This document shows positions 20,901 through 63,127 of a stretch of 64,000 bases of DNA, piece by piece (the stretch's first letter is position 1; every line of letters begins with the position of its first letter). A model generated the notes under the pieces. It was given only the letters and a program-made list of their open reading frames with translations. It did not search any database and was not told the origin of the DNA. The stretch comes from Cafeteria roenbergensis (taxonomy: Eukaryota > Sar > Bigyra > Bicosoecida > Cafeteriaceae): NCBI GenBank assembly GCA_008330645.1, contig VLTN01000028.1, forward strand, positions 248,001 to 312,000. Direction: 5' to 3'. The position numbers and the translations under genes are program-made.

Positions 20901-23900
20901 GGCGCATGCGCCTACACGTCACAGGCCTTGGAGGGCTACCTCGGCGCGCGCCTGCTGCTCCAGGCCGTCGCCAGGGCGGGCTCCGAAATCGATGCCTACT
21001 CGGCCGACCCCAGCGACAGCTTCGAGCCCGCCCGCCGGGCGGCCCGGGAGTCCTTGCTCCAGTCGATCTACGACGCTGGCATGTTCTCCTTCGAGAAGCT
21101 GCGGGTTGGCCCGTACGGCGGCGAGTGCGGCAACGCCGCAGAGGTGGGCGCCGTCAACCTGGGTTGCGAGTGCAACCAAGGCATGCACAACGTCTTCCTT
21201 ACCGAGCTCGTTGCCGGAGCTCCGCAGTACCTGCCGTCTGGCGTGCTGGTGACCCCGTTCGGGTTCGAGCGGCGCCCCGAGGGCGACGTGTTCTTCGAGT
21301 CCTGCGGCGTGTCTGTGGAGTATAGGCCACAGTCGGAGCAGCCAATCGTGTTCGGGCAGTCGGCATCCTTCTCCGGAGACACGGCTGGCCTCGGGACAGG
21401 GATGCAGCGGGGAATCCGCGCCGCCTTTTCGTTCACCAACGGGCGCGGCGGCATCAACGGCAAGGAGGTGCGCCTCGTGTCCTTCGACGACGCCTACAAC
21501 CCTGCAAGGGCAATCAGCAACACCCAGGAAGCGCTGTCAGCGCACCGCGTGTTTGGCTACATCGGCTCCACAGGGACGCCGACTGCCAGCGCAGTGTTCC
21601 CGCTGGTGACAGAGGCGAAGGTCCCATGGATTGGCGCCCTGACGGGCGCGGGCTTCCTTCGGTCCCCCTTCGTTCCCACCATCGTCAACGCCCGTGCCTC
21701 GTACACGGACGAGTGCGCTGCAATGACGAAGCACCTCGTCGCCATGGGCATTTCAAAGGTGGCATTCTTCGGCCAAGACGACTCCTTCGGCGGCGCAGGG
21801 CTATCCGGCATCACCTTGTCGCTCAAGTTCCACCGCCTGTCCCTCATGGTGGACAGCCGCTACCCGAAGGGCACGGAGGCGGTCCACTCGGGCATCGTGG
21901 CCATGCTCTCGCTGCCCGAGCCCCCCGAGGCCATCGTCATGTTTGGCACCTCCAAGCCTCTAGGCCGGTTCGCCGCCATTTTGCGGGTCACGTTCGACAG
22001 CCTCGGCTACAAGCAGCCTGTACTGTACGCGACGTCGTTCGTGGGCGCGCGAGCCTGGCGCCGAGCGACAGTGAGCGCCATGGCCCTCGAGGCCTCGACC
22101 CCGATCCCAGACTACCTTGAAAACATGTTCGTCGCATCTGTCGTGCCCGTGCCCGACGACGCATCCCACCCGCTCGTCGCTGCATACCAGCAGGACATGA
22201 GGGAGGCAGGTCTCGTCTCGGGGCCGGTGGGCAGTGTGGGCCAGCCGTCCAAGTTCGAGTACGAGTCGCTGGAGGGCTGGATCGTGGGGCGGCTGACGAC
22301 CATGGCCTTGCAGCGGTCTGCGTCGGCGACGCGCGCCGACTTCTTGAAGGCCTTCTACACGACCTCGTACTTTCAAATCGCTGCTGGCAGCCAGGCCCTG
22401 GGCCCGTTCATCGACGGCGACTGCAACCAGGGCTCGAGGCGCATCTGGATTGTGCGGGCGAACGCGGACTTGAGCGTGGCGACCGGCTCCGTTGGTGACT
22501 ACTTGCTCGACGAGTCTTTCGACTTTTCCGACCTCGGCTGCGGGGTGCTCGCAGAGTACTCCAAGCCCAACTGCCCGGATGGCAGCGAGCGGGTCTCGCT
22601 CAGCAACACGACGGAAGCCTTCACCTGCCACAAGTGCGCCCGCGGGTTCTTCAGCTCGGGCGGGGCCCCTTGCCGCGAGTGCCCAGCTGGCTCGGTGGCG
22701 GCGGACGAAGGGTCCCCGGCGTGCATCAAGTGCGGCCCTGGCCGCTTCCAAGACAGGCCTGGCCAAACCGCGTGCTTGGGCTGCGACATCTTCAGCTTCA
22801 GCACCGGCGCGGCCAATGCCCGCTGCACATCGTGCGGTCCCAACGCCATGACGTTCAGCGAGGGCGCGACGTCCCGAGCCGCCTGCATGTGCAGCCCGGG
22901 CTACTTTGGCTCTCCACACGTCGAGCCGGACGCCACCGTGCTCGAGGCGGTGCGGCTGGGGGCCGACCCCCCTCCGCTGCCAGGCTCCGATGGGTCCATG
23001 GAAGCCGTGGAGCTTGTCCCGGGCACATCTTACGTTCCCATAGCCCACCAGGACGGGCTCTGCCGTCCGTGCCCAGTCGGCGCGCGCTGCTGCCGGAGCG
23101 AGGCAGAGGGCGTGCCCGAAACAGCCGCGAGCGCCCTCAACAGCACCGCAGCCTCCACAGCGCAGCGCTGCCGAACGGGGACCATCATGCCTCTGCCCAC
23201 AAGCGGGCACATCGAGTCCACACGGCTGCCAGCCACCATGGTGGCATGCAATCCCGCGCAGTCCTGCGTCGGCGTCGAGCGCGAGAGCCAGCTGAACGAG
23301 TCAAGGCGGTGCGCGGTTGGCTACGAAGGCCTGCACTGCGGGCACTGCGTCGATGGCTTCTACAACTTCTACGGCGTGTGCAACCCTTGTGGCTCCGACG
23401 ACGAGGCCTGGGGCCGCGCGGCAGGGATGGCCCTGTTCATCTTGGTCATCGTCCTGTCCGCGCTGGAGCTCTCGACGCGCAAGAGCACGTACACCGGCCT
23501 GGGGCTGATGCTTAACAGCCTGCAGATTGGCGGCCTGTTCAATGCAGTGTTTGCGCGCTGGCCCCGCATGGCTGACAGCTTCTACGCGGCTGCGGCAGTG
23601 GTCACGTTCAGGCTCGACTCCTTCAGCCCGGAGTGCAAGCTGCAGCACTTGTACCCTCGGGATATCTTCGAGCGCCAAATTATGTGGCTTGTGCTTCCTT
23701 GTGGGTTTGCGCTGGTATATGTGGTGATCTATGGCATCGTTCTTTGCCTGCGCGCCTTGATCGTGCAGTGCGGCTGCACCGTTCGGGGTCGATACTTAGG
23801 CTACTGCGGCATGCTGCGGATGCTCACCCTCCCCTTTCCCAAGTTGAACGCGACGTTCGTCAGCGGCTTTTCCCGGCTCGCGATTTCCGGCTACCCTGTC

Positions 23901-48077: not shown

Positions 48078-51000
48078 ATGCCCACCACCACCAAGTTCGC
48101 GACCTGGGACTCGGCCGCACATGCCACCGCCGCCCCGGAGAAGAGGGGCGACAAGCGCAGTCAGCGGGGGCTCGGCTGCACCTCCCTTTCTGTTGCCTTG
48201 TGCCTCGCGGGGCTGGCTTCGTCGGCAGGCCTGAGCATCGCAGCTCCCTGGATCAGCCCCGCCGAAGACATTGGCGCCCGCCTGGGCATGCCTGCCCAGC
48301 GGGTCGCCCTCTGGCTCGTCGCGCGTACGCGGCACCGGCTCTTCGCGGACTCGGACTGGCGGCATTACATGTTCGCGACGCTCTCGCTCACGGCCGGCCG
48401 CTTCGTCTCTCTGGCCCTGCTGCTCGTCGTGGGGGTGTACCTGTCCAACAGCACGTTCGCGTTCGGTCGCATGGCACACGCCAAGGCCACCGCGTTTGCT
48501 ATCGGGGCCATCATTGCGGCTCTCGTGCCGCTGTCCGCGGAGGCGCTCGGAGCAACCCGAGTCGTTCTGTTCTTCGGGCCCGAGGGCACGTGCGGCTGGA
48601 TCAGCGAGGAGAGCCTGGTCCACTACGAGCTGGTGGGCTTCTCTGCGGCACTTGTCACCTACCTGTGGCCGAGCCAGCACCGGGGCCGCGTGGCATGCTG
48701 CGGGCGCGCGTGGCGACTGGCCACGTTTTTCGTGCTGCTCAGCAGCTGCGCAGTGGTGACCTTCTTCGCCACCGCGATCCAGGCAACTCATGTCTCCCCT
48801 TGGGCGTACGCGTTTTGCGCCGTGGTGACTGCGCTCGCCAACGTGTCCACGCTCTGCGCCTCGCGCGCCAGGCTGTGCCTCACGCGGGGCCAGTCGTTGC
48901 ACGAGGGCAGCCTGCTGGCTGGCGCTCGCGTCTTGCAGCACATTGCCCTGCCCGTGCTTCAGGTTGGCGTCATGGCGTACCTGCACACCACCATGGTGCC
49001 GGACGGGTGCCCGTCCTGGGCACGCGCCGGAACGCGGAGCAGCGCCACTGGACCCGATGCCGGAGTGGCGTGGCCCGAGTCCGTGGATGCGAGCGATCCG
49101 CAAGCGGTGGCGAGGGTGCTGGCCGCACTGAACCGCTCCGCCGCCCTGGAGGTGGCCACAGCAATCTTGACGGCGAGCGTCTGCATCGGCGCAATGCTCA
49201 AGGCGCAAGAGGTGTTCACGCGCACCCAAGCTGCTGCGAGCCACGCCGCTGAGCAGGACCTCCGGAGCGGCATCGCCTTCGTCTCCATGCGCTCGCGCGG
49301 ACCGCTCAACGCCGCCGCCCTCAGCCTCGCCCTCCTCAGGCCCGGCGGCGCGTCCGGCTCGCACGACATCCCGCGGGCCGATCTGCTGCGGGAGCTGCGC
49401 GCCAGCGTGCAGCGGTCGAAGCGGCACCTGGACGGGCTGCTGCTGTGGGGCAAGGCGAGCGCCAATGCGGCGGCGGACGTGGTGCCGGCGGCGTGGGGGC
49501 GGCTGGACGACGCGTGGGGCCGTCGGATCTGCAGCGGGTTCCTCGGCGAGACGGCGGCGTCGGGCCGTCGCCTGAGCGTGAGCGTGTGGCCGGTGGGGGA
49601 CCGGGCGGCGGCCGCGGCGCCCGCAGTGCGAGAAAAGCGAGGAGCACTATGGCGTGCCGTGGCGACTGGATTCGACGACGGGGAGCGCGACGCAATGAAG
49701 CCTCACTCTTGGCTGGTGCCAGACAAGCCTGTGGCCGGCAGCGGGCACTTCGAGGTCTTGGCTGACCACGACCGAATTTTGGCAGTGTGCAGCAACGCCG
49801 TGTCCTTCGCCTTCAGTTTGGAGGCGCCGTCCGACCGCGAGGCAGCTGGCCGCCGCTCGCAGCCGCCAGTCGACTGGCCCGCCTCTCCAATCAGCGAGTC
49901 GTCGGAGGAAAGCTCTGACGCCCCTGGCGAGCAACGAAGGCACGTCCAGGTGGCTGCGTGGGTCGAATACGGGCCCACCCCCCACCTGGCCGGGCATGCC
50001 TCCCTAAGCGCCGCAGAAGACTTTTCAAGTTTCGCAGACCTCAGAGTGGGTCGCAGGAAGCGGACGTCTTCATCCACCACAGACGTGACAGAGTGCGAGG
50101 CTGGACAAGCTGTGTTGGCGCACGACGACGCTCCCCATGAGTCCCGAACCCCCTCCACGGGCTTCAGCCGAACGTTTGCCCCGTTCGGGCCCGCAAGCCT
50201 TTGGCCGGAGGGCGCCGTGGCCGCAACGCTCGTGCTCGCCATAGCAGACGACGGGCCAGGGCTCAAGCCGGAAGTCGTTGCTTCCGGCCGGGTCGTGGAG
50301 CCCTTTGCAGCCTTTCGGGGTGGGGGTGGCCTCGGACCGCCAGACCTCGGGCTGGCGGTGGTCAGAAGCGTCGTGGTCGAGGGGATGAGGGGCTCTGTTC
50401 GAGTGTCAAGCGGCCTGGGGGTCGGCACATCCGTTCAAGTGCGGATCCCAGTCAAGGCACGGAGGCTCCCTCAAAGTTGCTTGGGGCAGGGGTCATCCGT
50501 GGGCTGCCAGCTCGAATCGCAGACGTCCCCGGGCGGAGGCTGGTCGGTCAACGCGGTCTCAATCAGCACTGGCAGCCGACTGAAGGCGTCCCCTGCTCAT
50601 TCCAGGTCTGACAGGCCTGCAAGGGCCAGGCGAGGCGTCAAAGCACCTGATTCGAAGCCCTCTCCTCTGCGGAAGCAGCGTGTAATCGTGCACGGTGCAT
50701 GTCGCGACCAGGCCCCTGGCTCTGCGAAGCTCCCGGCTGCCAGGCCACTCCACCACGAGCTGAAGCCAGAGGCCGCCAAGCCAGCCGCTCCCCGAGCAGT
50801 GTCCAGCACAGGGCGGCCTTCCAGGGCAGCACGGGCCCAGCGAAGGACCGAAAAACTTTGGGGGCGCCAGCAGCGTGCCAGGGTTGGCAAGAACAAGCCG
50901 TCCATCGACGGCGTGGCGTGGGTGTGCGACGACGACTTCGCCACGCGCTCGCTGCTGTCGTCGCTGCTGCGGCGCCAGGGGCTGCGCGTGGAGGCCTTCG

Positions 51001-51389
51001 CCGACGGCCAGGACGCCGTGGACCGCATGCGGACGTTGCTGGCTGAGGACGCCGGCCGTGCCGCGGACGGGGAGGACGGCGGCGCGACGTGCCCGGCGGC
51101 GAGCATCCTGCCGCGGTTGCTGGTGGTGGACGGGTCGATGCCGCGCTTGGGCGGCGTGGGCACGCTCGCTGCGGTCCGGGCGCTGCGGGCGGAGGCGTCG
51201 TCGCTGGGCGCGGTGGGCGTGGTGTCGGCGCTGGACGAGCTGCGGGCGATCGCGGTGACGGGCGACGCCACGAGCGAGGGCCGCCGTGCGTTCCTCGAGG
51301 CGGGCGCGTCGTCGGTAATCGCGAAGCCGGTGGATGCAACTGCTCTTGCTGACTGCGTCCAAGCCCTCGTGGCCGGGCCCCATTCCTGA
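48078..51389 (+). CDS. hybrid histidine-kinase-like membrane sensor 1, phosphoacceptor His replaced
   Basis: 1,103 residues, single exon. The N-terminal 390 residues have about seven or eight hydrophobic segments (FVSLALLLVVGVYLS, FFVLLSSCAVVTFF) with a loop containing DGCPSWARAG shared in form by its neighbours. The HisKA-like helix reads FVSMRSRGPLNAAALSLALL; where kinases have S-H-E-x-R-T-P-L-N, this has Met at residue 404. The second helix (RSKRHLDGLLLWGKAS) is normal. The ATPase has an N-box (HDRILAVCSNAVSFAF, about 564), G1 box IADDGPG (about 721) and PDLGLAVVRSVV, with an insertion of about 150 residues between N and G1. The receiver (from about 945) has the acidic CDDD, likely phosphoacceptor D1018 in VVDGSMP, Thr in VTGD and Lys in AKPV. 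It is the most divergent of the three receiver-bearing copies. A start at 47994 is possible but unsupported. Confidence 0.85.
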   Translation: MPTTTKFATWDSAAHATAAPEKRGDKRSQRGLGCTSLSVALCLAGLASSAGLSIAAPWISPAEDIGARLGMPAQRVALWLVARTRHRLFADSDWRHYMFATLSLTAGRFVSLALLLVVGVYLSNSTFAFGRMAHAKATAFAIGAIIAALVPLSAEALGATRVVLFFGPEGTCGWISEESLVHYELVGFSAALVTYLWPSQHRGRVACCGRAWRLATFFVLLSSCAVVTFFATAIQATHVSPWAYAFCAVVTALANVSTLCASRARLCLTRGQSLHEGSLLAGARVLQHIALPVLQVGVMAYLHTTMVPDGCPSWARAGTRSSATGPDAGVAWPESVDASDPQAVARVLAALNRSAALEVATAILTASVCIGAMLKAQEVFTRTQAAASHAAEQDLRSGIAFVSMRSRGPLNAAALSLALLRPGGASGSHDIPRADLLRELRASVQRSKRHLDGLLLWGKASANAAADVVPAAWGRLDDAWGRRICSGFLGETAASGRRLSVSVWPVGDRAAAAAPAVREKRGALWRAVATGFDDGERDAMKPHSWLVPDKPVAGSGHFEVLADHDRILAVCSNAVSFAFSLEAPSDREAAGRRSQPPVDWPASPISESSEESSDAPGEQRRHVQVAAWVEYGPTPHLAGHASLSAAEDFSSFADLRVGRRKRTSSSTTDVTECEAGQAVLAHDDAPHESRTPSTGFSRTFAPFGPASLWPEGAVAATLVLAIADDGPGLKPEVVASGRVVEPFAAFRGGGGLGPPDLGLAVVRSVVVEGMRGSVRVSSGLGVGTSVQVRIPVKARRLPQSCLGQGSSVGCQLESQTSPGGGWSVNAVSISTGSRLKASPAHSRSDRPARARRGVKAPDSKPSPLRKQRVIVHGACRDQAPGSAKLPAARPLHHELKPEAAKPAAPRAVSSTGRPSRAARAQRRTEKLWGRQQRARVGKNKPSIDGVAWVCDDDFATRSLLSSLLRRQGLRVEAFADGQDAVDRMRTLLAEDAGRAADGEDGGATCPAASILPRLLVVDGSMPRLGGVGTLAAVRALRAEASSLGAVGVVSALDELRAIAVTGDATSEGRRAFLEAGASSVIAKPVDATALADCVQALVAGPHS
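49255..49615 (+). repeat. HisKA-coding block repeated four times across the sensor array
   Basis: This block of about 340-360 bases recurs at 53098-53456, 57723-58082 and 61951-62283 with only a handful of base changes. It encodes the HisKA-like helices from LRSGIAFVSM to GRRLSVSVWP. Flanking sequence differs much more between copies 1, 4 and the 2/3 pair, which points to homogenisation of this block. Confidence 0.9.
50911..51334 (+). repeat. receiver-coding block repeated three times
   Basis: About 424 bases nearly identical to 55321-55745 and 59934-60357. They encode the whole receiver from GVAWVCDDDF to IAKPV. Copy 1 matches copies 2 and 3 here at DNA level, although its ATPase and linker differ clearly. 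Confidence 0.9.
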
Positions 51390-51873
51390 ACTCAGAAGAT
51401 GTCAACAAACGCCGCGTGAGGTGCAGAGAGTTTTTCGTCGGTGCGAGGCAGGGGCTGTCAGCTGCTTTTTAGCTCGACAATCCGCCCCAGAGCCCAGTGT
51501 TTGCCGTGCGTTTACGTCAAGCAGCATTGCCATTGCTTTGGATGGCTCCGGCTCGAATCGAATGACGATAGCCCCGCAACGCAGAACACTGCACTGCTCG
51601 CTGCTGCCAGCACGGCCAAGCGCAGGCGGAAACACGAGCGTGGGCCAGCTGTCTTGCCATGGCATCCTTGCCGGAAGTGAAACGCATGCTTCAGGCTTGG
51701 CGCCGCGTAGTGAGATTGCTTCCTGCTGCCTGGGCGGCCTTTCCGTCCGGAGCTGCCCTGCGAGCGCTGCCAGCAGCCGAACGTGGCTGGAGCAACGCCT
51801 CCGCGCTGCGGCCGCGTCGGTTCCCAGTGCGCGCACCCTCGAGCTCGCGCCACCGGGGCACACCCCGCCTCCC
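51390..51873. other. intergenic region between sensor genes 1 and 2
   Basis: These 484 bases presumably hold the 3' end of sensor gene 1 and the promoter of sensor gene 2. The last 40 bases (GAGCTCGCGCCAC...) resemble the matching position upstream of sensor gene 3, so the duplication unit may begin just before the start codon. No other feature is seen. Confidence 0.45.
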
Positions 51874-54800
51874 ATGGACGGCTGGGCAAGCTTCGAGGCC
51901 CGGCGGGAGTCGGCCTCGCGCGGCGATGCAGTCGCGGCCGGGCGCGGCGGCAGCAGCACGGCTTGTGTCGCCGTGAGCTTCGCAGCGTTCCTCGCGGTCT
52001 GGACTTGCGTGAGCGCTTTGACGTACTTGCGGACGAGCACGGACGAGTACTACGAAGTGGATGACGCGCTGGCGCTGCCGGTGTTCTCGTGGGTGCGGGA
52101 CAGCCAGCGGCTGGGCGGCCGGCCGTTCGGGCGAGGGTTTGACGGCGAGCTGCGACACATCGTGGACGTGGCCAAGTCGTCAGCCACGGCAAGGATCGTC
52201 GCCATCATTGGCACCCTGGTCACTCTGGTGCTGGTGTGGAGCCGTCGCCGGCACTTGGAGCTGGCGATCAAGGCGAAGATGCTGGTGCTGGCCGTGGCAG
52301 TGCTCGGGGGCGAGGCGGGGTATATTTTCGACGGCTCCTTCGGGAAGCACCGCGTCGACCCGATAATGGGGCTTCAAGGCTCTTGCCTTTGGATGCCGCT
52401 GGCCGTTACCCAGTCGTACGTTGCCGTGGCGCTTGCCGGCATCTTCGCGACAGTGTTCTTGCCGGGCCCGAGCAACACGATCGAGTGCCGTTGCTGGCGA
52501 GGGCCGTCGATGACGGCGCGTTTGTCGGACATTTTGCGCGCATTCGGGGGGATCACGCTTTGCTTCTTCGCGGTTCTGTGGGTAAGTTACTCATCGGTCC
52601 TCCAGCTTGACGCCACGTCCAGTCCAGTATTCCAGGTCGTTGTCCTCAGTGCTGGAGCAATGATGTGTTCCATCAGCATCGCAGGGGCGTACATCATCGT
52701 GCAAAGGCGCCGCTCCGACGACCCGGTGGTGCGTGGGACGCTTCGGGCGACAGTAGCCACGGTGCTCCAAGGCGTCGGTGTGCCGCTGATTCAGTGCGCG
52801 ATGCTTGGGTTTGTTTCGCATTCCTCTGCCAACTCTGCGGGCTGTCCCGCCTGGGCACAGGCCGGCCGGGGCCTCGACGCGCCGTCTGTGCCACCCTCGA
52901 CTCTGCGCTGGCCTCAGGGGCTGGACCCACAGGATGCCGACGTCCGCGAGCGCGTGTACGGCTCGCTGTACCTGACTGCGGGGTTTCATTGGGCAACGTG
53001 CGTGATTGCTTCGTTCGTGGCCGTGGTGGTGTTCGTTCAGGCGGTCGAGTCCGACTCGCGATGGGAGTCCAAGGCGGCCACCGCCGCCTCCCGCAAGCTC
53101 CGGAGCGGCATCGCCTTCGTCTCCATGCGCTCGCGCGGACCGCTCAACGCCGCCGCCCTCAGCCTCGCCCTCCTCAGGCCCGGCGGCGCGTCCGGCTCGC
53201 ACGACATCCCGCGGGCCGATCTGCTGCGGGAGCTGCGCGCCAGCGTGCAGCGGTCGAAGCGGCACCTGGACGGGCTGCTGCTGTGGGGCAAGGCGAGCGC
53301 CAAGGCGGCGGCGGACGTGGTGCCGGCGGCGTGGGGGCGGCTGGACGACGCGTGGGGCCGTCGGATCTGCAGCGGGTTCCGCGGCGAGACGGCGGCGTCG
53401 GGCCGTCGTCTGAGCGTGAGCGTGTGGCCGGTGGGGGACCGGGCGGCGGCCGCGGCGGGCGACGTCGGGGCGTCGCTGGGAGGCGAGTCGCGCCGCGGGC
53501 CGTCGTCGCAGGGGTGGCGCGCGGTGTGCGCGGATGAGGCGTCGGGGGGCGCGGGGAGCCGGGTGAGTCCGCTCCCGTGGCTGGTGCCGGGGCCGAGCGC
53601 GGTGTGCACTGGCAACCTGGAGGTGCTGGCCGACCACGACCGGCTGCTGGCTGTGTGCCGCAACGCGGTGTCGTTCGCGTTCAGCCAGGAGCCGCCCCCG
53701 ACGGACCGGCTGTCGTCGGGCGTGTCAAGCAGCGCATCTGCGCCCGGCGACGCCTCACAGCAGTGTCCGCTGTCGAGCGGGGCGGGGCGGTCGGCGGGCG
53801 AGGTGCAGGTGGCCGTGTGGGCGGAGCCCGATGATCCGGAGGATCCGCAGAGCCCGTCGTTGGACTGTGTGGCTGGCGCGGGAAGCGAGGGCGAGGGTGC
53901 AGCGGGCGTGGTAGCTGGCGGTGCTGGGGGTGCTGGCGCAGACGGCGACGTCGGCGGTGGCATGGACGCCACCGCGGGTGTCGGGCCGGTCCGCGTCGGC
54001 GTGGCGGCTCGTGCGCCGGGCCAGGTGTGGGGCGGTCGCGGGGTCAGCGTCGGCGCGGCATCGGTGCCGTCGAGGCGCCGAGTGGTGCCGCTGGGGGAGG
54101 GCGCGCAGTCGGCCATCGACAGCCGTCCCCGGGGGATACTGCGTCGCAGCTCGCTGGGCGACGTGCTGCGCATGCGGTCGTACATGGCCCGCGCCACGCT
54201 GGTGGTCGCGGTGGCGGACAACGGGCCGGGCATGGACCCCGAGGCGGTGTCGTCGGGCAGCGTCCTGGAGCCGTTCGCGGCGATGCGCGGGGCGGCGAGG
54301 AGCACGCCGTCGGACCTGGGGCTGGCGGTGGTCAAGAGCGTTGTGGTGGACGGCATGGGGGGGTCAGTGCGCGTGTCGAGCCGGGTGGGCGTGGGCTCGG
54401 TGGTGCAGGCTCGCGTTCCGGTGTGGGTCCGGCTGGACAGCGGGGCGCCTGCGATGTCGCACTTCGGGCGCAGCATCAACGCTGGGGGGTGTGCCGGGGT
54501 GGCCAGGGCGCCCGTGGGATCGCTGGGCAAGTCTGTCTCGTCGGGGCCCTCCCGCCAGGCAGCGTTGGTGAGGCTGGCCATGTCATCATCCACAACGGGA
54601 TCGACCTCGGCGCACCAGGAACACGCAGGGCATGCACTTGCGGAGGGCGATGCGGCCTTTCAGTCACTTCGTGGTGCGTCTGCGATTGCAGTTCGCTCGG
54701 TTGTGGGCCAGGCCACGGCGCCTCGCCCTGCCGGGGGTGACGCCTCATCCGCGGTGGCTGCGAACACGCCTGCCGCAGTCGCACCGCGGCGGTCCGGGGC

Positions 54801-55806
54801 GCACCTGCAGCCCCTGTCCGTGACGGGCATCAACGACCCGTCGCTTGGTCGCTTGCGCAGCTGCAGCACGGCTCCCGGCGAGGGCGAGGGCGCGAGCGCG
54901 AGCGCAGTCGCTGAGTGCGCCGGCACGGGTCGCCCTGCGATGGTCGTGGGCGCGGGGAGCCCGAGGGCCGTGCGGCAGAAGGGCCTCACGGTGGAGGGCC
55001 GCGGGTCCAGCCACAGGCGCATGGCGGGCGGGGAGCGGCGCACCAGCGACGGCGACGGCCTGTCCAGCCCGGCGAGGCAGCAGCGCGCGCCGCCTCGTGA
55101 GCGCTCGTCTGAGGGGCGTGGCCCGCGCGCGCAGCGGGAGCGCCGCCAGTCGCCGACAGGCGCTGCGGCCGTCAGCCCGTCCAGGGCGCGATCGCGGGCG
55201 GAGCGGGAGGCGCGTCGGCAGCAGCGTGCGCCCCGCGCAGGGCCGTCGCCCTCGTCTCGCGCCGGGAGCAGCTCCGCCGCGGGCGCGCGCGCGTCTCGGC
55301 GTGGTCGGCTGGCGCTGAGCGGCGTGGCGTGGGTGTGCGACGACGACTTCGCCACGCGCTCGCTGCTGTCGTCGCTGCTGCGGCGCCAGGGGCTGCGCGT
55401 GGAGGCCTTCGCCGACGGCCAGGACGCCGTGGACCGCATGCGGACGCTGCTGGCCGAGGACGCCGGCCGTGCCGCGGACGGGGAGGACGGCGGTGCGACG
55501 TGCCCGGCGGCGAGCAGCCTGCCGCGGTTGCTGGTGGTGGACGGGTCGATGCCGCGCTTGGGCGGCGTGGGCACGCTCGCTGCGGTCCGGGCGCTGCGGG
55601 CGGAGGCGTCGTCGCTGGGCGTGGTGGGCGTGGTGTCGGCGCTGGACGAGCTGCGGGCGATCGCGGTGACGGGCGACGCCACGAGCGAGGGCCGCCGTGC
55701 GTTCCTCGAGGCGGGCGCGTCGTCGGTAATCGCGAAGCCGGTGGAGGCCGAGGTGCTGCTCGCGAGTCTGGGTGACGTGTTGGGGTCGTCGAGCGAGGAG
55801 GCATGA
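51874..55806 (+). CDS. hybrid histidine-kinase-like membrane sensor 2, phosphoacceptor His replaced
   Basis: 1,310 residues, single exon, starting MDGWASFEARRESASR as in copy 3. About eight membrane segments lie in the first 395 residues (ACVAVSFAAFLAVWTCVSAL, IVAIIGTLVTLVLVW, VAVALAGIFATVFLPG), with a loop carrying GCPAWAQAGRGLDAPSVPP before the last one. The HisKA-like box has Met418 in place of the phosphoacceptor His (SMRSRGPLNA). The ATPase N-box lies near 588 (HDRLLAVCRNAVSFAF) and G1 near 781 (VADNGPGMD), separated by an insert of about 190 residues. G2 reads SDLGLAVVKSVV. A Ser/Arg-rich linker of about 300 residues leads to a complete receiver with D1223 in VVDGSMP and Lys in IAKPV. 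From the HisKA block to the stop it is nearly identical to copy 3, so this is a very recent duplicate. Confidence 0.85.
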   Translation: MDGWASFEARRESASRGDAVAAGRGGSSTACVAVSFAAFLAVWTCVSALTYLRTSTDEYYEVDDALALPVFSWVRDSQRLGGRPFGRGFDGELRHIVDVAKSSATARIVAIIGTLVTLVLVWSRRRHLELAIKAKMLVLAVAVLGGEAGYIFDGSFGKHRVDPIMGLQGSCLWMPLAVTQSYVAVALAGIFATVFLPGPSNTIECRCWRGPSMTARLSDILRAFGGITLCFFAVLWVSYSSVLQLDATSSPVFQVVVLSAGAMMCSISIAGAYIIVQRRRSDDPVVRGTLRATVATVLQGVGVPLIQCAMLGFVSHSSANSAGCPAWAQAGRGLDAPSVPPSTLRWPQGLDPQDADVRERVYGSLYLTAGFHWATCVIASFVAVVVFVQAVESDSRWESKAATAASRKLRSGIAFVSMRSRGPLNAAALSLALLRPGGASGSHDIPRADLLRELRASVQRSKRHLDGLLLWGKASAKAAADVVPAAWGRLDDAWGRRICSGFRGETAASGRRLSVSVWPVGDRAAAAAGDVGASLGGESRRGPSSQGWRAVCADEASGGAGSRVSPLPWLVPGPSAVCTGNLEVLADHDRLLAVCRNAVSFAFSQEPPPTDRLSSGVSSSASAPGDASQQCPLSSGAGRSAGEVQVAVWAEPDDPEDPQSPSLDCVAGAGSEGEGAAGVVAGGAGGAGADGDVGGGMDATAGVGPVRVGVAARAPGQVWGGRGVSVGAASVPSRRRVVPLGEGAQSAIDSRPRGILRRSSLGDVLRMRSYMARATLVVAVADNGPGMDPEAVSSGSVLEPFAAMRGAARSTPSDLGLAVVKSVVVDGMGGSVRVSSRVGVGSVVQARVPVWVRLDSGAPAMSHFGRSINAGGCAGVARAPVGSLGKSVSSGPSRQAALVRLAMSSSTTGSTSAHQEHAGHALAEGDAAFQSLRGASAIAVRSVVGQATAPRPAGGDASSAVAANTPAAVAPRRSGAHLQPLSVTGINDPSLGRLRSCSTAPGEGEGASASAVAECAGTGRPAMVVGAGSPRAVRQKGLTVEGRGSSHRRMAGGERRTSDGDGLSSPARQQRAPPRERSSEGRGPRAQRERRQSPTGAAAVSPSRARSRAEREARRQQRAPRAGPSPSSRAGSSSAAGARASRRGRLALSGVAWVCDDDFATRSLLSSLLRRQGLRVEAFADGQDAVDRMRTLLAEDAGRAADGEDGGATCPAASSLPRLLVVDGSMPRLGGVGTLAAVRALRAEASSLGVVGVVSALDELRAIAVTGDATSEGRRAFLEAGASSVIAKPVEAEVLLASLGDVLGSSSEEA

Positions 55807-56498
55807 GTGTTTCCACATCGTGGGGGTGGAGGCCGTGGCTCGCGAGCTCGTGTGGTGCTGCAGCGTGGTCCCTAGCTGGCTGTGTCATCGCGCGCCTGCG
55901 CTCCCAACGTCTGGAAGCGCGAAGGGGCACGCCCTATCAAGCGCAATGCTGCACATGCGCGGGCCAACGCGACAAGCGAAGCTGCCACCAGCTGTTCTTC
56001 AGCGATCGGACCGCGCTGTTTGCAACCAGCTCGTCCCGCTTGCAAGGCGCGAGTCTGCCGCGTCGAGGTCCATGGCAAGGCATCCGCTCTCCGGCCGGTT
56101 GCCCGCTCATGGACAAGCACCATCACTCGCTGGGTGTGCTCAGTGCGAGGGGGCCATGGGTGGCCGCTTCAGGCAGCAAACCGCCGGCGAGCACCGCTGC
56201 GCGTCGCTCTCCGCCTCTGGCGCTGCTCGGCTCGTTCCCTTCCCGCGGCGGCAGCAACATCAGCCGCTAGTTCCAGCGACGTGCGACTGGCGGGCTTGAG
56301 TCACGCCGCCGAGGCCTGGCGGTCGAGCTCAGTGGCCGAAGATCCCGCCACAGGGCCGGCGTGCTGACTTGCGTGGCCCAACTTGACTGGCACACCAGCC
56401 CAGCGGAAACGCCTCTGCCGCTGCTGGTCGCGCCGACCCCCGCCCGCGCACTCGCGAGCTCGCGCCACTGCGCTCCGCCCTCACCCACCCCACTTCCC
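55807..56498. other. intergenic region between sensor genes 2 and 3
   Basis: These 692 bases are unlike the flanking near-identical genes except close to the next ATG. Frames crossing them have no motif. Presumed promoter of sensor gene 3. Confidence 0.45.
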
Positions 56499-59400
56499 AT
56501 GGACGGCTGGGCAAGCTTCGAGGCCCGGCGGGAGTCGGCCTCGCGCGGCGATGCAGTCGCGGCCTGGCGCGGCGGCAGCAGCACGGCTTGTGTCGCCGTG
56601 AGCTTCGCGGCGTTCCTCGCGGTCTGGACTTGCGTGAGCGCTCTGGCGCACGTGGAGACGAGCACGGACGAGTACTACGAAGTGGATGACGCGCTGGCGC
56701 TGCCGGTGTTCTCGTGGGTGCGGGACAGCCAGCGGCTGGGCGGCCAGCCGTTCGGGCGAGGGTTTGACGGCGAGCTGCGACACATCGTGGACGTGGCCAA
56801 GTCGACGGCGACCGCGCGGGTGGTCTCCGTGGTCGGCACCCTGGTCACTCTGGTGCTGGTGTGGAGCCGTCGCCGGCACTTGGAGCTGGCGATCAAGGCG
56901 AAGATGCTGGTGCTGGCCGTGGCAGTGCTCGGGGCCGAAGCGGGCAAGTTGCTCGTGGGCATATGGGGGCAGCACCGCGTCGACCCGACGTTCGGACTGA
57001 ACGGCTCGTGTTTGTGGGTGTCCCTCATGACCCCACAGTCGTACATTGCCGTGGTGCTCGCCGGGATGTTCGCGACAGTGTTCTTGCCGGGCCCGAGGAG
57101 CACGATCGAGTGCCGTTGCTGGCGAGTGCCAATGATGACGGCCCGAGTCATCGAGGTGGCGCGCGCGGCTGCAGGGATCACGTTGTGCATCTCTGCGGTT
57201 CTGTGGGTAAACTTCGCGTCCTTGTTCCAACTCCGGCCCGCTTCGGGCCACACCTTCCGCGTCCTGGTCGTTAGTGCTGCTGTCATGCTGATCGCAATCA
57301 GCATCGCTGGGGCGTACATCATCGTGCAAAGGCGCCGCTCTGACGACCCGGTGGTGCGTGGGACGCTTCGGGCGACAGTAGCCACGGTGCTCCAAGGCGT
57401 CGGTGTGCCGCTGATTGCCACGGCGATGCTTGCCTACCTCGCTCACACGTCCGACAACTCTGCGGGCTGTCCCGCCTGGGCACAGGCCGGCCGGGGCCTC
57501 GACGCGCCGTCTGTGCCACCCTCGACTCTGCGCTGGCCTCAGGGGCTGGACCCACAGGATGCCGACGTCCGCGAGCGCGTGTATGGCTCGCTGTACCTGA
57601 CTGCAGCCTCGCATTGGGCAGGGTGCATGATTGCATCGTTCGTGGCCGTGGTGGTGTTCGTTCAGGCGGTCGAGTCCGACTCGCGATGGAAGTCCAAGGC
57701 GGCCACCGCCGCCTCCCGCAAGCTCCGGAGCGGCATCGCCTTCGTCTCCATGCGCTCGCGCGGACCGCTCAACGCCGCCGCCCTCAGCCTCGCCCTCCTC
57801 AGGCCCGGCGGCGCGTCCGGCTCGCACGACATCCCGCGGGCCGATCTGCTGCGGGAGCTGCGCGCCAGCGTGCAGCGGTCGAAGCGGCACCTGGACGGGC
57901 TGCTGCTGTGGGGCAAGGCGAGCGCCAAGGCGGAGGCGGACGTGGTGCCGGCGGCGTGGGGGCGGCTGGACGACGCGTGGGGCCGTCGGATCTGCGGCGG
58001 GTTCCGCGGCGAGACGGCGGCGTCGGGCCGTCGCCTGAGCGTGAGCGTGTGGCCGGTGGGGGACCGGGCGGCGGCCGCGGCGGGCGACGTCGGGGAGTCG
58101 CTGGGAGGCGAGTCGCGCCGCGGGCGGTCGTCGCAGGGGTGGCGCGCGGTGTGCGCGGATGAGGCGTCGGGGGGCGCGGGGAGCCGGGTGAGTCCGCTCC
58201 CGTGGCTGGTGCCGGGGCCGAGCGCGGTGTGCACTGGCAACCTGGAGGTGCTGGCCGACCACGACCGGCTGCTGGCGGTGTGCCGCAACGCGGTGTCGTT
58301 CGCGTTCAGCCAGGAGCCGCCCCCGACGGACCGACTGTCGTCGGGCGTGTCAAGCAGCGCATCTGCGCCCGGCGACGCCTCACAGCAGTGTCCGCTGTCG
58401 AGCGGGGCGGGGCGGTCGGCGGGCGAGGTGCAGGTGGCCGTGTGGGCGGAGCCCGAGGAGCCGCAGGGCGCGTCGTTGGACTGTGTGGCCGGCGCGGGGA
58501 GCGAGGGCGAGGGTGCAGCGGGCGTGGTAGCTGAGGGTGCTGGCGCAGACGGCGACGTCGGCGGTGGCATGGACGCCACCGCGGGTGTCGGGCCGGTCCG
58601 CGTCGGCGTGGCGGCTCGTGCGCCGGGCCAGGTGTGGGGCGGTCGCGGGGTCAGCGTCGGCGCGGCATCGGTGCCGTCGAGGCGCCGAGTGGTGCCGTTG
58701 GGGGAGGGCGCGCAGTCGGCCATCGACAGCCGTCCCCGGGGGATACTGCGCCGCAGCTCGCTGGGCGACGTGCTGCGCATGCGGTCGTACATGGCCCGCG
58801 CCACGCTGGTGGTCGCGGTGGCGGACAACGGGCCGGGCATGCACCCCGAGGCGGTGTCGTCGGGCAGCGTCCTGGAGCCGTTCGCGGCGATGCGCGGGGC
58901 GGCGAGGAGCACGCCGTCGGACCTGGGGCTGGCGGTGGTCAAGAGCGTTGTGGTGGACGGCATGGGGGGGTCAGTGCGCGTGTCGAGCCGGGTGGGCGTG
59001 GGCTCGGTGGTGCAGGCTCGCGTTCCGGTGTGGGTCCGGCTGGACAGCGGGGCGCCTGCGATGTCGCATTTTGGGCGCAGCATCAACGCGGGAGGGTGTG
59101 CCGGGGTGGCCAGGGCGCCCGTGGGATCGCTGGGCAAGTCCGTGTCGTCGGGGCCCTCCCGCCAGGCAGCGTTGGTGAGGCTGGCCATGTCATCATCCAC
59201 AACGGGATCGACCTCGGTGCACCAGGAACACGCAGGGCATGCACTTGCGGAGGGCGATGCGGCCTTTCAGTCACTTCGTGGTGCGTCTGCGATTGCAGTT
59301 CGCTCGGTTGTGGGCCAGGCCACGGCGCCTCGCCCTGCCGGGGGTGACGCCTCATCCGCGGTGGCTGCGAACACGCCTGCCGCAGTCGCACCGCGGCGGT

Positions 59401-60443
59401 CCGGGGCGCACCTGCAGCCCCTGTCCGTGACGGGCATCAACGACCCGTCGCTTGGTCGCTTGCGCAGCTGCAGCACGGCTCCCGGCGAAGGCGAGGGCGA
59501 GGGCGCGAGCGCGAGCGCAGTCGCTGAGTGCGCCGGCACGGGTCGCCCTGCGATGGTCGTGGGCGCGGGGAGCCCGAGGGCCGTGCGGCAGAAGGGCCTC
59601 ACGGTGGAGGGCCGCGGGTCCAGCCACAGGCGCATGGCGGGCGGGGAGCGGCGCACCAGCGACGGCGACGGCCCGTCCAGCCCGGCGAGGCAGCAGCGCG
59701 CGCCGCCTCGTGAGCGCTCGCATGAGGGGCGTGACCCGCGCGCGCAGCGGGAGCGCCGCCAGTCGCCGACGGGCGCTGCGGCTGTCAGCCCGTCCAGGGC
59801 GCGATCGCGGGCGGAGCGGGAGGCGCGTCGGCAGCAGCGTGCGCCCCGCGCAGGGCCGTCGCCCTCGTCTCGCGCCGGGAGCAGCTCCGCCGCGGGCGCG
59901 CGCGCGTCTCGGCGTGGTCGGCTGGCGCTGAGCGGCGTGGCGTGGGTGTGCGACGACGACTTCGCCACGCGCTCGCTGCTGTCGTCGCTGCTGCGGCGCC
60001 AGGGGCTGCGCGTGGAGGCCTTCGCCGACGGCCAGGACGCCGTGGACCGCATGCGGACGTTGCTGGCCGAGGACGCCGGCCGTGCCGCGGACGGGGAGGA
60101 CGGCGGTGCGACGTGCCCGGCGGCGAGCAGCCTGCCGCGGTTGCTGGTGGTGGACGGGTCGATGCCGCGCTTGGGCGGCGTGGGCACGCTCGCTGCGGTC
60201 CGGGCGCTGCGGGCGGAGGCGTCGTCGCTGGGCGCGGTGGGCGTGGTGTCGGCGCTGGACGAGCTGCGGGCGATCGCGGTGACGGGCGACGCCACGAGCG
60301 AGGGCCGCCGTGCGTTCCTCGAGGCGGGCGCGTCGTCGGTGATCGCGAAGCCGGTGGAGGCCGAGGTGCTGCTCGCGAGTCTGGGTGACGTGTTGGGGTC
60401 GTCGAGCGAGGGCGGGCGTGATCGCAGCAGGGTCGTAGTTTGA
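56499..60443 (+). CDS. hybrid histidine-kinase-like membrane sensor 3, phosphoacceptor His replaced
   Basis: 1,314 residues, single exon, same architecture as copy 2: about eight membrane segments, HisKA-like box with Met418 for His, ATPase with a long loop insert, Ser/Arg linker, and receiver with D1219 in VVDGSMP. The cytoplasmic half differs from copy 2 by only a few residues (EEPQGAS replacing a slightly longer Asp/Pro stretch; one extra Gly-Glu pair near 59490; NGPGMH for NGPGMD after the G1 box). In contrast, several membrane and loop stretches between 56930 and 57290 differ strongly. The C-terminus ends GGRDRSRVVV, unlike copy 2. It is the third of four same-strand genes. Confidence 0.85.
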   Translation: MDGWASFEARRESASRGDAVAAWRGGSSTACVAVSFAAFLAVWTCVSALAHVETSTDEYYEVDDALALPVFSWVRDSQRLGGQPFGRGFDGELRHIVDVAKSTATARVVSVVGTLVTLVLVWSRRRHLELAIKAKMLVLAVAVLGAEAGKLLVGIWGQHRVDPTFGLNGSCLWVSLMTPQSYIAVVLAGMFATVFLPGPRSTIECRCWRVPMMTARVIEVARAAAGITLCISAVLWVNFASLFQLRPASGHTFRVLVVSAAVMLIAISIAGAYIIVQRRRSDDPVVRGTLRATVATVLQGVGVPLIATAMLAYLAHTSDNSAGCPAWAQAGRGLDAPSVPPSTLRWPQGLDPQDADVRERVYGSLYLTAASHWAGCMIASFVAVVVFVQAVESDSRWKSKAATAASRKLRSGIAFVSMRSRGPLNAAALSLALLRPGGASGSHDIPRADLLRELRASVQRSKRHLDGLLLWGKASAKAEADVVPAAWGRLDDAWGRRICGGFRGETAASGRRLSVSVWPVGDRAAAAAGDVGESLGGESRRGRSSQGWRAVCADEASGGAGSRVSPLPWLVPGPSAVCTGNLEVLADHDRLLAVCRNAVSFAFSQEPPPTDRLSSGVSSSASAPGDASQQCPLSSGAGRSAGEVQVAVWAEPEEPQGASLDCVAGAGSEGEGAAGVVAEGAGADGDVGGGMDATAGVGPVRVGVAARAPGQVWGGRGVSVGAASVPSRRRVVPLGEGAQSAIDSRPRGILRRSSLGDVLRMRSYMARATLVVAVADNGPGMHPEAVSSGSVLEPFAAMRGAARSTPSDLGLAVVKSVVVDGMGGSVRVSSRVGVGSVVQARVPVWVRLDSGAPAMSHFGRSINAGGCAGVARAPVGSLGKSVSSGPSRQAALVRLAMSSSTTGSTSVHQEHAGHALAEGDAAFQSLRGASAIAVRSVVGQATAPRPAGGDASSAVAANTPAAVAPRRSGAHLQPLSVTGINDPSLGRLRSCSTAPGEGEGEGASASAVAECAGTGRPAMVVGAGSPRAVRQKGLTVEGRGSSHRRMAGGERRTSDGDGPSSPARQQRAPPRERSHEGRDPRAQRERRQSPTGAAAVSPSRARSRAEREARRQQRAPRAGPSPSSRAGSSSAAGARASRRGRLALSGVAWVCDDDFATRSLLSSLLRRQGLRVEAFADGQDAVDRMRTLLAEDAGRAADGEDGGATCPAASSLPRLLVVDGSMPRLGGVGTLAAVRALRAEASSLGAVGVVSALDELRAIAVTGDATSEGRRAFLEAGASSVIAKPVEAEVLLASLGDVLGSSSEGGRDRSRVVV

Positions 60444-60727
60444 GCTGTGAGCAGCTGGCGCAATCGTTGCCACATTCAGTGAGCTGACCGCTTTTCACCT
60501 GCCTCTGACACACTTGGCAACACTCACGAGCTGCCATGGTCCGGCGGCGTGCGTGTGGCGGCGCGCTGTGCTTGGCTTGCCCAGCCTCGCAGCCGTTTCT
60601 CTCTCGAGTTGCTCTTTTGGAACTTGCCTCAGGCCAAGCGTGTCGCTGACCGTGCACTCACCGGCCCTTTGTCGCTTTACGAGCTGACCCGACCTCCGCC
60701 CAGCGTTCAGGCACGCGCTCCTGCTCA

Positions 60728-63127
60728 ATGTGGGTGACCCATACGACAGCGGCAGCTCCTTGCGCGCTTCAGCGGCCGCCTGTGACGCCAGCCAAGCGCT
60801 CGGCTCTCGCTTCCGTTGCTGTCGTCCTCTTTTGCGCGCTCCTGGCCGCATGGGGTGCCAAGGCGGCATTCGGCGACTTGATTTGGCAGCATGAGCGGTA
60901 CTACACCCTGCGTCGGTCAGAAACTCGGCTCGTGACGGCATGGCTGCGCGAGGAGTGCCTGAGAGTCGGAGCAGCGAGGTGCAAAGTGGCATCAGGCGCG
61001 CATGACCGAGTGCTGCGCGCGTCAGCCACAAAGGTTGGCGCGGAAGTCACTTCCACGGCCATTGCCCTGCTGATGATTCGGTTTGTTGTGGCTCGGTGGC
61101 CCGTCCTGGAAGGACCCACGCGGGCCAAAGCCGTGGTCTTGGCCTCGGCGGTGTTTTCGAGCGAGCTGGGAACTGCGCGGCGCTGGATCACTGGCACGTC
61201 GTTCCTCGACCCACTGGCCGGGCCGGTGGGCAGCTGCCTGTGGATATCAGAGTCCACGGCGCAGGCTTTTGGCGCCACATGTGTGGCGGCGCTGTTCGCC
61301 ACGCTCTACGCGTCAGGGCCGAACAGCGACATCAGGCCTTGGTGCGCTCGGCGCAGCAGCGGCGCGCCGCCCCCGACCCGATGGGAGATGGCCCGTGACT
61401 GCGTCGCGCCCGCGTTCATTGTGGCGCAGTTCCTGTGGGCCAGCGTTTCGGTCCACGCTCAGCCAGCGAAAGAGACAGGCGTGGTGTTCACCATCCTCAC
61501 GGCAGTTGTGTTGGCCGTTGCGGTGGCAGGCTTTGGGGCGCACGTGCTGCAGGCGCTTCGGCTGTGGCGCCATCGCAATGGCATGCCAGGCGAGAGTGTG
61601 CGGGCTTTGCTCGCAACAAGCTTGCAACGGGTGCTCGTTGCGATGCTTGTGACCTCCATGGCTGTGTATGTGTCGGCGGATTCGACTGGCTCAGGCTGCC
61701 CAGCCTGGGCTGCTGCGGGAGCCGGGTTTGACCGCCCCAGCGTCCCCGACGCACCTGCTGTTTGGCCCCAGGGCCTGGATGCTGGAGATCCTGACGTCGT
61801 GGAGCGTGTGGTCCGCACGCTTGTTCTGTCGGCAGTGCTCAGCGCTGGCCGCAGCGCGCTGGTGGTGATCCTCGCAGTCATCGTCGTGTTTCAGTCGTCC
61901 GCCTCCGAAAGCCGATGGCGCAGCTGGTTTGCTTCGAAAGCTGAGCAGGACCTCCGGAGCGGCATCGCCTTCGTCTCCATGCGCTCGCGCGGACCGCTCA
62001 ACGCCGCCGCCCTCAGCCTCGCCCTCCTCAGGCCCGGCGGCGCGTCCGGCTCGCACGACATCCCACGGGCCGATCTGCTGCGGGAGCTGCGCGCCAGCGT
62101 GCAGCGGTCGAAGCGGCACCTGGACGGGCTGCTGCTGTGGGGCAAGGCGAGCGCCAATGCGGCGGCGGACGTGGTGCCGGCGGCGTGGGGGCGGCTGGAC
62201 GACGCGTGGGGCCGTCGGATCTGTGGCGGGTTCCGCGGCGAGACGGCGGCGTCGGGCCGTCGCCTGAGCGTGAGCGTGTGGCCGGAGGCACCGCCGGTCG
62301 GAGGTGCTGCCGGTCCGTGGCCTATGAGGTGCAAAGGTTGCTCGCTACCTGGCCCCAGCACGGCGTGGCACTCGACGGTCTCCGGGCCGTCGCGCGTGAG
62401 GTGCAGGGCAGTTCATCCGCTCCCGTGGCTGGTGCCAGCCTCAGGCATCGTCGGGGCAGGCCACCTGGAGGTGCTGGCCGACCACGACCGGCTGCTGGCT
62501 GTTTGCCGCAACGCGGTGTCGTTCGCGTTCAGCCAGGAGCCATCAGCCAGGACGAGAGCTGAGCGCCCGAGCAGCTGCCCAGCGTGCGGAGAAGTGCAAG
62601 TGGCCGCTTGGGTCGAGCTGCAGTACCTGCAGCCCACGCGCACTGCTGTGCCGCGGGCTGGCTCGTCGGCCAGCACAGCGTGCAGCACGCCACGCGCTGC
62701 CCGTGTCGCTCCGGCCGCGGCTGGGCCGTTGCGGGCAATGTCAGCGGAGACGCAGGAGCTGGACGTGACGGAGGCGAGCGACAATCCTGACGAGGGCACC
62801 AAGGCGCGGACTCACTCTCGCTTCCCAGCAGCACCTGGCCTCGACGTACCGCTTGGGGCTTCCGTTGGGGCTACTCTTGTCGTTGCCGTGGCGGACGACG
62901 GCCCTGGCCTGGACCCCGAGACCGTCGCTTCGGGCCGTGTCTTCGATCCCTTCTCTGCACGCCGTGGCACCTCCACGGCGCTTCCAACAGATTTGGGAAT
63001 GGCAGTTGTCAAGAGCGTGGCGGCCGCCATGGGAGGGCACGTGACCGTGTCGAGCAGGCTAGGCGTCGGAACTGTTGTGCACGCCCGGATTCCCGTGCGT
63101 GTCAGGCGCAAGCCCAGGGAAGATTGA
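60728..63127 (+). CDS. histidine-kinase-like membrane sensor 4, no receiver, phosphoacceptor His replaced
   Basis: 799 residues, single exon. The membrane part is divergent in sequence but parallel in layout to copies 2 and 3 (VAVVLFCALLAAWGAKAAFG, VVFTILTAVVLAVAVAGFG, loop with GCPAWAAAGAGFDRPSVPD). The HisKA-like block, with Met418 for His, is nearly identical in DNA to the other three copies, and the AEQDLRSG lead-in matches copy 1. The ATPase has its N-box near 588, VADDGPGLDPE near 720 and TDLGMAVVKSV, then the protein ends soon after (RVRRKPRED). There is no receiver and no remnant of one before the convergent eL30 gene 156 bases on. The start at 60728 gives MWVTHTTAAAP directly before the first hydrophobic segment. 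Confidence 0.83.
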   Translation: MWVTHTTAAAPCALQRPPVTPAKRSALASVAVVLFCALLAAWGAKAAFGDLIWQHERYYTLRRSETRLVTAWLREECLRVGAARCKVASGAHDRVLRASATKVGAEVTSTAIALLMIRFVVARWPVLEGPTRAKAVVLASAVFSSELGTARRWITGTSFLDPLAGPVGSCLWISESTAQAFGATCVAALFATLYASGPNSDIRPWCARRSSGAPPPTRWEMARDCVAPAFIVAQFLWASVSVHAQPAKETGVVFTILTAVVLAVAVAGFGAHVLQALRLWRHRNGMPGESVRALLATSLQRVLVAMLVTSMAVYVSADSTGSGCPAWAAAGAGFDRPSVPDAPAVWPQGLDAGDPDVVERVVRTLVLSAVLSAGRSALVVILAVIVVFQSSASESRWRSWFASKAEQDLRSGIAFVSMRSRGPLNAAALSLALLRPGGASGSHDIPRADLLRELRASVQRSKRHLDGLLLWGKASANAAADVVPAAWGRLDDAWGRRICGGFRGETAASGRRLSVSVWPEAPPVGGAAGPWPMRCKGCSLPGPSTAWHSTVSGPSRVRCRAVHPLPWLVPASGIVGAGHLEVLADHDRLLAVCRNAVSFAFSQEPSARTRAERPSSCPACGEVQVAAWVELQYLQPTRTAVPRAGSSASTACSTPRAARVAPAAAGPLRAMSAETQELDVTEASDNPDEGTKARTHSRFPAAPGLDVPLGASVGATLVVAVADDGPGLDPETVASGRVFDPFSARRGTSTALPTDLGMAVVKSVAAAMGGHVTVSSRLGVGTVVHARIPVRVRRKPRED

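Follow-up and report, generated by a model that had tools for sequence, protein, structure and literature searches.

The subfamily II ethylene receptors of plants, i.e., ETR2, EIN4 and ERS2, are not known to carry the phosphoacceptor His. They are described as membrane receptors whose histidine-kinase module has diverged and which have a receiver in some members only, while the ethylene-receptor family also has autokinase-active members, and like and unlike receptors form higher-order complexes (PMC3485614). The phosphoacceptor His is likewise replaced in the pseudo-histidine kinase DivL of Caulobacter, in this case by Tyr, and the DivL core is described as no longer serving catalysis, but dimerisation and the binding of response regulators (PMC4211667). 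A third case is the ChrS pseudokinase variant of Corynebacterium glutamicum, a dead kinase reported to work through its active paralogue, in a system where the native paralogues heterodimerise and a truncated version showed no interaction (PMC9491836).

Here, we compare with these systems an array of four tandem + strand open reading frames from Cafeteria roenbergensis/burkhardae strain BVI, a eukaryote of the bicosoecid stramenopiles. The window, i.e., the whole stretch of 64,000 nucleotides that was analysed, corresponds to C28:248001-312000 (loci are labelled contig:position) and has a GC content of 66–74%. The genome searched comprised 167 contigs and 36,303,456 bases, while the CrBVI assembly in print is given as 36,327,047 bp in 170 contigs, with an N50 of 460,467 and 70.1% GC (PMC6972860). 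According to the ORF and Pfam reading, the array encodes membrane receptors of hybrid histidine-kinase layout (the TM helices of copy 1 were judged from the sequence by eye):

48078-51389, + strand: copy 1, multi-TM sensor, DHp with Met404, degenerate CA and receiver, 1131 aa (ORF and start; Pfam HATPase_c, Response_reg)
51874-55806, + strand: copy 2, architecture as copy 1, Met418, 1490 aa (ORF, Pfam)
56499-60443, + strand: copy 3, architecture as copy 1, Met418, 1360 aa (ORF, Pfam)
60728-63127, + strand: copy 4, sensor, DHp with Met418 and CA, without receiver, 799 aa (ORF, Pfam, receiver search)

The array shares with the subfamily II ethylene receptors the membrane-receptor layout, the diverged kinase module, a receiver in only some members and a family that also has apparently active kinases; complexes of like and unlike receptors would be a further parallel. 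Yet, the array has another multi-TM sensor. Ethylene receptors of this subfamily have an N-terminal transmembrane ethylene-binding domain plus GAF, and no GAF or any other sensor family was found above the Pfam cut-off in any of the four copies. In addition, gene conversion has homogenised the DHp helix of the array. DivL is said to keep its N, G1, F and G2 boxes (PMC4211667), whereas N-box and G2 are altered in the array; DivL is also, unlike the array, PAS-based and bacterial. In turn, the ChrS variant carries a laboratory-evolved CA frameshift (PMC9491836), while the array is a natural lineage.

Pfam recognised HATPase_c in all four copies, with 37.4–47.9 bits against a cut-off of 26.4, and tblastn with the array masked found no further copies within the window. 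An open frame resembling enoyl-CoA hydratase (by eye) lies downstream of copy 4. Elsewhere in the window (17949-25769), a 2606-aa open frame encodes a large receptor with three stretches matching Peripla_BP_6/ANF receptor (bacterial-type amino-acid-binding) and, weakly, ephrin-receptor-like repeats. Relatives outside the genome were found neither in viral contigs (exact DNA pattern and protein pattern) nor in prokaryote genomes, and as the genome of the window and its closest kin may be missing from what these searches covered, they are silent on other Cafeteria strains. No paper treating the four genes was found by title or abstract start among the open-licence papers listed for pseudokinase histidine kinases, Cafeteria histidine kinases, gene conversion in hybrid kinases and protist expansions.

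The sequence-only reading held that Met replaces the phosphoacceptor His in all four copies (S-M-R-S-R-G-P-L-N; Met404 in copy 1 and Met418 in the others). Alignment with paralogues of the same genome bears this out, including the numbering, which runs from the ATGs at 48078, 51874, 56499 and 60728. The Met codons lie in open frames at 49287-49289, 53125-53127, 57750-57752 and 61979-61981 (copies 1–4), and paralogue boxes such as FVSHGARGPLN (C13), AVSHASRGPLN (C44:219k) and YVSHEARGPLN (several others) place Met exactly at the His column. The placement rests on these paralogues because the Pfam HisKA profile misses all four window copies; it is thus the alignment, and not the profile, that puts Met at the phosphoacceptor position. 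No conserved His elsewhere in helix 1 takes the phosphoacceptor place, and the helix-2 His of the array copies (KRHLD) is also present in paralogues that retain the helix-1 His.

The H-box DNA is the same in all four copies (TCC ATG CGC TCG CGC GGA), and since the paralogues shown in the alignment use CAC, ATG needs all three bases changed. Such a codon change would be explained by a compensated pair of indels, in which the loss of one base and the gain of another close by turned S-H-A-S into S-M-R-S. The pair might reflect a sequencing or assembly error, since near-identical tracts can mislead polishing. We find an error scarcely credible, as the same Met stands in four copies whose flanks are distinct, N-box and G2 losses exist besides it, and polishing of the assemblies is described as having used PacBio reads first and Illumina reads afterwards (PMC6972860).

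Genome searches for paralogues gave at least 40 HATPase_c, at least 28 HisKA and at least 51 helix-region matches, which overlap. A scan with an H-box pattern that admitted no residue but H or M in the phosphoacceptor column returned 49 matches, three of which were dropped by eye (C28:250432 −, C42:101191 + and C45:186592 −), leaving the four Met boxes of the window and 42 His boxes; four further His boxes (C36, C6:257k, C20 and C21) were recognised by eye. As the H/M-only pattern is biased, every locus from the HATPase_c, HisKA and helix searches was traced to a surveyed gene, with the exception of C30, C76 and C40:140k. By eye, the matches C30 and C76 appear to be other genes and C40:140k another kind of kinase. 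His is retained in 46 of 46 H-boxes reached outside the array, as opposed to none of the four within it; among the 46, C110 and C141 look nearly the same as C10 and C6, of which they may be alleles. Met in four of four copies against none of 46 elsewhere is more than chance. Like the array, the numerous hybrid kinases of this Cafeteria genome (C13:175k, C44:219k, C45:186k and others) have the helix-1/helix-2 motifs, the same CA motif order and often a receiver; unlike it, the paralogues carry His in all those read and the N-box Asn in 24 of 36 scored. In one paralogue, C6:257.6k (L038), the reading frame breaks directly after the H-box SHEARS.

The survey covers loci other than nine receiver matches without a found kinase (C79, C6:713k, C1:137k, C1:143k, C14:311k, C14:315k, C39, C7 and C9:233k). 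Three of these nine were read in part, yielding one atypical His-bearing box and two pieces without a box. The first, the receiver protein L066 (C6:711.8-714.6k), has upstream an apparent, very diverged kinase module with the box AYHELTNSL; upstream of the receiver protein L068 (C1:141.5-144.8k) lies a similar apparent module with a G2-like TTGLGHTL (both by eye). The HisKA/HATPase_c searches missed both modules, and the piece read of the third locus holds neither a box nor a G2-like stretch.

The general base of HisKA kinases is the Glu at H+1, Thr/Asn at H+4 has a role in the phosphatase activity of HisKA proteins, and helix alpha4 begins at the G2 box. The second Asn of the NxxxNA motif is described as typically coordinating Mg-ATP, while Lys/Arg just past the N-box touches the ATP phosphates, which sit where helix alpha4 has its N-terminal end (PMC10017428); EnvZ is said to bind ATP no longer once one N-box Asn is lost (PMC3848655). 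The ATP-binding boxes of the array had been read as intact, which holds true for G1 in all four copies and fails for the N-box and G2, altered in all four:

49755-49826, + strand: degenerate N-box of copy 1, NAVSFAFS against NAxSNAxK in active-looking paralogues (profile scan, scoring)
53623-53694, + strand: degenerate N-box of copy 2 (profile scan, scoring)
58248-58319, + strand: degenerate N-box of copy 3 (profile scan, scoring)
62471-62542, + strand: degenerate N-box of copy 4 (profile scan, scoring)
50223-50456, + strand: G1-F-G2 of copy 1, G1 DDGPG, G2 Gly replaced by Asp (PDLGL)
54193-54423, + strand: G1-F-G2 of copy 2, G1 DNGPG, G2 SDLGL
58800-59030, + strand: G1-F-G2 of copy 3, G1 DNGPG, G2 SDLGL
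62837-63100, + strand: G1-F-G2 of copy 4, G1 DDGPG, G2 TDLGM

In each copy, the Mg-ligand Asn (the second Asn of the N-box) is replaced by Phe and the next Lys by Ser, giving NAVSFAFSQ (SL in copy 1) where active-looking paralogues have NAxSNAxK(H). Window G1 reads D(D/N)GPG versus their DNGxG, with DxGxG present in all four copies, while G2 reads (P/S/T)DLGL/M versus SSGLGL or near, with GLGL in none of the four. By manual count, the G2 Gly before L is found in all 36 scored others and is Asp in the four array copies; GLGL in full occurs in 22 of the 36.

These counts refer to the 40 of 46 genes with enough CA to score (C23, three C26 genes, C38_106k and C110 were incomplete or unaligned), and N-boxes were located by a profile scan, used instead of a regular-expression search that missed nearly all paralogues. 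The second N-box Asn is present in 24 of the 40 scored kinases, and 23 of these 24 have Glu at H+1, the lone exception being C44_210k with Gln. Glu at H+1 thus occurs in 23 of 36 scored paralogues, while the four array copies have Arg. Neither residue is found in the remaining 16 kinases, i.e., 12 with His and the four window genes with Met. The association between N-box Asn and H+1 Glu is strong (Fisher p = 2.7e-10, ignoring shared ancestry, with at least two lineages involved). In nine of the 12 His-bearing, Asn-less genes (C38, C44:271-283k, C70 and C8:113k) the N-box scores poorly, which is to be read as "no recognisable N-box". Gly at H+4 is shared by 28 of the 40 scored kinases, including the four array copies.

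Judged by these residues, the array departs from a histidine-kinase enzyme in its His, N-box Asn and G2, and agrees with one in G1. The four copies are predicted to be histidine pseudokinases, with the domains of the family and its catalytic residues lost; that reading, first proposed from the missing His, is strengthened by the damage to the ATP-Mg site. Nucleotide binding without catalysis may persist, because HATPase_c scores above cut-off in all four copies and G1 is kept. An AlphaFold model of the DHp-CA core of the four copies (mean pLDDT 35.7) was too poor for use.

It had also been suggested that phosphate transfer uses another residue. A Ser stands directly before Met and another two residues after it, and Ser/Thr kinase activity, as this explanation would have it for the array, is said of subfamily II ethylene receptors (PMC3485614). 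However, the Mg ligand, the phosphate-side Lys and the G2 Gly are missing in all four copies, and many paralogues that have the His carry the preceding Ser as well. These losses make phosphorylation of another residue, such as the neighbouring serines, very improbable.

In trees built from motif blocks, the four copies form one clade (99.9/100), which persists at 100/100 both without the H-, N- and G-box columns and on the CA blocks alone. With all columns, its neighbours are C44_219k, C13_175k and C9_688k (91/91), in which His is present and the N-box Asn absent. Removal of the trait columns leaves C13 and C44_219 as neighbours with only moderate support (79/74) and C9 drops out, while on the CA blocks alone all three remain (84/70). 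By descent, the array genes appear to belong to the HisKA-type hybrid kinases, given HATPase_c and their shared ancestry with His-bearing paralogues; the C-terminal receiver with Asp, Thr and Lys of such kinases is present in copies 1–3 and was not found in copy 4. Because neighbours without N-box Asn and H+1 Glu retain His, catalysis and the ATP site were probably lost ahead of His in the array lineage.

The H-box of each copy lies in a tract of roughly 350 bp (346–360 bp and 98.8–99.2% identity against copy 1 by BLAST):

49248-49619, + strand: homogenised DHp tract of copy 1 (Met codon 49287-49289), 98.8–99.2% to copies 2–4, sharp edges
53098-53457, + strand: homogenised DHp tract of copy 2 (Met codon 53125-53127), delimited against copy 1 (BLAST, dS)
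57723-58082, + strand: homogenised DHp tract of copy 3 (Met codon 57750-57752), delimited against copy 1 (BLAST, dS)
61940-62285, + strand: homogenised DHp tract of copy 4 (Met codon 61979-61981), delimited against copy 1 (BLAST, dS)

Over 113 DHp codons, the copies are 97.6–99.1% identical, with dS of 0–0.04 in all six pairs. For copy 1, dS is 0–0.03 in the tract versus 0.84–2.6 in the two adjoining regions, while in the sensor copies 2/3 have a dS of 0.26 and the five other pairs 1.4–2.0, close to saturation. A second tract of the same kind covers the receivers of copies 1–3 (426 bp at 98.8–99.1% against copy 1 by BLAST); in pairs without copy 1, the BLAST match extends past the DHp or receiver tract. 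Selection on the protein does not hold silent sites identical, and the tracts are for this reason attributed to gene conversion or recent exchange. The DHp of four copies and the receivers of three are thus best read as gene-converted while the sensors diverged.

It follows that the Met, within a gene-converted tract of a single clade of four genes, is one event that was copied. Its sameness, which had been taken to suggest that the change is fixed and functional, is uninformative on independent fixation, and that argument fails. In contrast, G1-G2 is not part of the converted tract, and five pairs have diverged there (dS from 1.4 to off scale), with the G2 Asp common to all four copies. Copy 1 has the N-box Phe and Ser in common with copies 2–4, with an N-box dS of about 2, or off scale, between them. 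Shared at such high dS, the N-box and G2 losses appear to be old. For copies 2/4 and 3/4, N-box dS is 0.15–0.20. As it is copy 1 alone whose N-box has diverged from the others, this box may also have been exchanged between copies.

We observed the same conversion pattern among 22 paralogue pairs clearly in three of four C64 genes and partially in helix 2 of C44:271/275k and in helix 1 of the C22 pair, while it is absent in the C40, C38 and C50/C54 pairs. The C64 locus (C64:23-50k, L027-L029) is a second tandem array, in which His is kept, three of four DHp helices are near-identical at silent sites and the sensors are near saturation.

Copies 2/3 are the sole pair with low yet measurable sensor dS, and here dN is 0.137 and dS 0.262 (dN/dS 0.52, Fisher p = 1.9e-4). 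In G1-G2, dN/dS is 0.15–0.16 in pairs 1/2, 1/3, 2/4 and 3/4, a rough value as dS is high (dN/dS is rough wherever dS exceeds 1, and the pair 1/4 has an off-scale dS in G1-G2). The insert and linker after the DHp give 0.35–0.75 among diverged pairs, also roughly, with dS mostly above 0.8. The proteins thus appear to be kept by purifying selection, including a CA not expected to catalyse, and it is this selection, seen outside the converted tracts, that speaks for functional genes. The opposite view, that a tandem array is decaying and lost its His without selection, draws on several catalytic losses occurring together, on copy 4 being without a receiver and on the frame break at the H-box of C6:257k. 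We regard decay as improbable in view of the dN/dS of copies 2/3, the low CA dN/dS between diverged copies and the conserved G1 and receiver residues; the long open frames are weak evidence at 70% GC.

The receivers, too, had been described as intact, and this is true of copies 1–3, in which the Asp, acidic pair, Thr and Lys are kept; copy 4 has none according to Pfam, the genome receiver search and its downstream sequence.

50909-51359, + strand: receiver of copy 1, Asp codon 51129, homogenised tract 50909-51334 (receiver search, BLAST)
55320-55767, + strand: receiver of copy 2, Asp codon 55540, homogenised tract 55320-55745 (Pfam, BLAST)
59933-60380, + strand: receiver of copy 3, Asp codon 60153, homogenised tract 59933-60358 (Pfam, BLAST)

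Such receivers might act as a phosphate sink or decoy, draining phosphoryl groups from active paralogues or competing for partners, with the kinase core as a dimeriser. The conservation and homogenisation of the receiver residues in copies 1–3 and the presence of about two dozen genome kinases with an intact-looking N-box speak for this role, yet copy 4 has a homogenised DHp and conserved CA sequence without any receiver. We consider the sink unlikely as the main function, though it has a real chance of being right.

The explanation that we favour, and hold to be fairly probable, is that the array represents a pseudokinase lineage under purifying selection, in which the ATP site was probably lost before His and whose products act as non-catalytic, dimerising receptors beside active paralogues. 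Different sensors would bind ligand and be conformationally coupled through one common dimer interface. Because their DHp helices are the same, the copies possibly dimerise with one another, and the partners could be homodimers, heterodimers among the four copies or complexes with active paralogues. The receivers of copies 1–3 would obtain phosphate only in trans, in keeping with the earlier idea that other proteins feed them, or serve as a docking surface. No autokinase activity would be expected, and H+4 is Gly rather than Thr/Asn. An expression study of stationary phase deals with a flagellate that is presumably Cafeteria. Genes upregulated in stationary phase in that flagellate are described as enriched in histidine-kinase and receiver domains (PMC7852580).

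A HPt/ChpT-like protein needs a phosphorylatable His, in place of which all four array copies have Met; the 12 His-bearing, Asn-less paralogues would supply one. Several paralogues (C38:97-106k, C44:268-283k, C70:32-37k and C8:111-114k; L039, L023, L024, L053, L054 and L033) keep His (SHHARG, NHHARG, GHHSRG), mostly have a receiver, show no recognisable N-box and are absent from the HATPase_c listing; they are candidate dead kinases serving as phosphotransfer proteins. Whole-genome search with HPt (PF01627) gave three weak matches, none over cut-off and none HPt-like by eye, although one could be concealed by an intron or by divergence; the receiver-domain matches listed for the genome number 51, without any over-cut-off HPt. 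It is conceivable, albeit quite doubtful, that Cafeteria has a whole signalling layer of dead kinases. The 12 His-only paralogues would be its phosphotransfer hubs and the Met copies, one step further on, interchangeable receptor subunits, whose dimer helix is held by conversion, whose sensors pair freely and which modulate active or hub subunits.

The 40 scored kinases of this one genome form a staged series, from 24 apparently active ones with the N-box Asn, through 12 with His only, to four with neither. As such a series exists within a single genome, it becomes testable in which order the losses came and why His was retained after kinase loss. Bacterial paralogues usually evolve insulation; free pairing of Cafeteria sensors, if true, would be the reverse. 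A homogenised dimer helix combined with diverged sensors suggests receptors selected for mixing, not separation.
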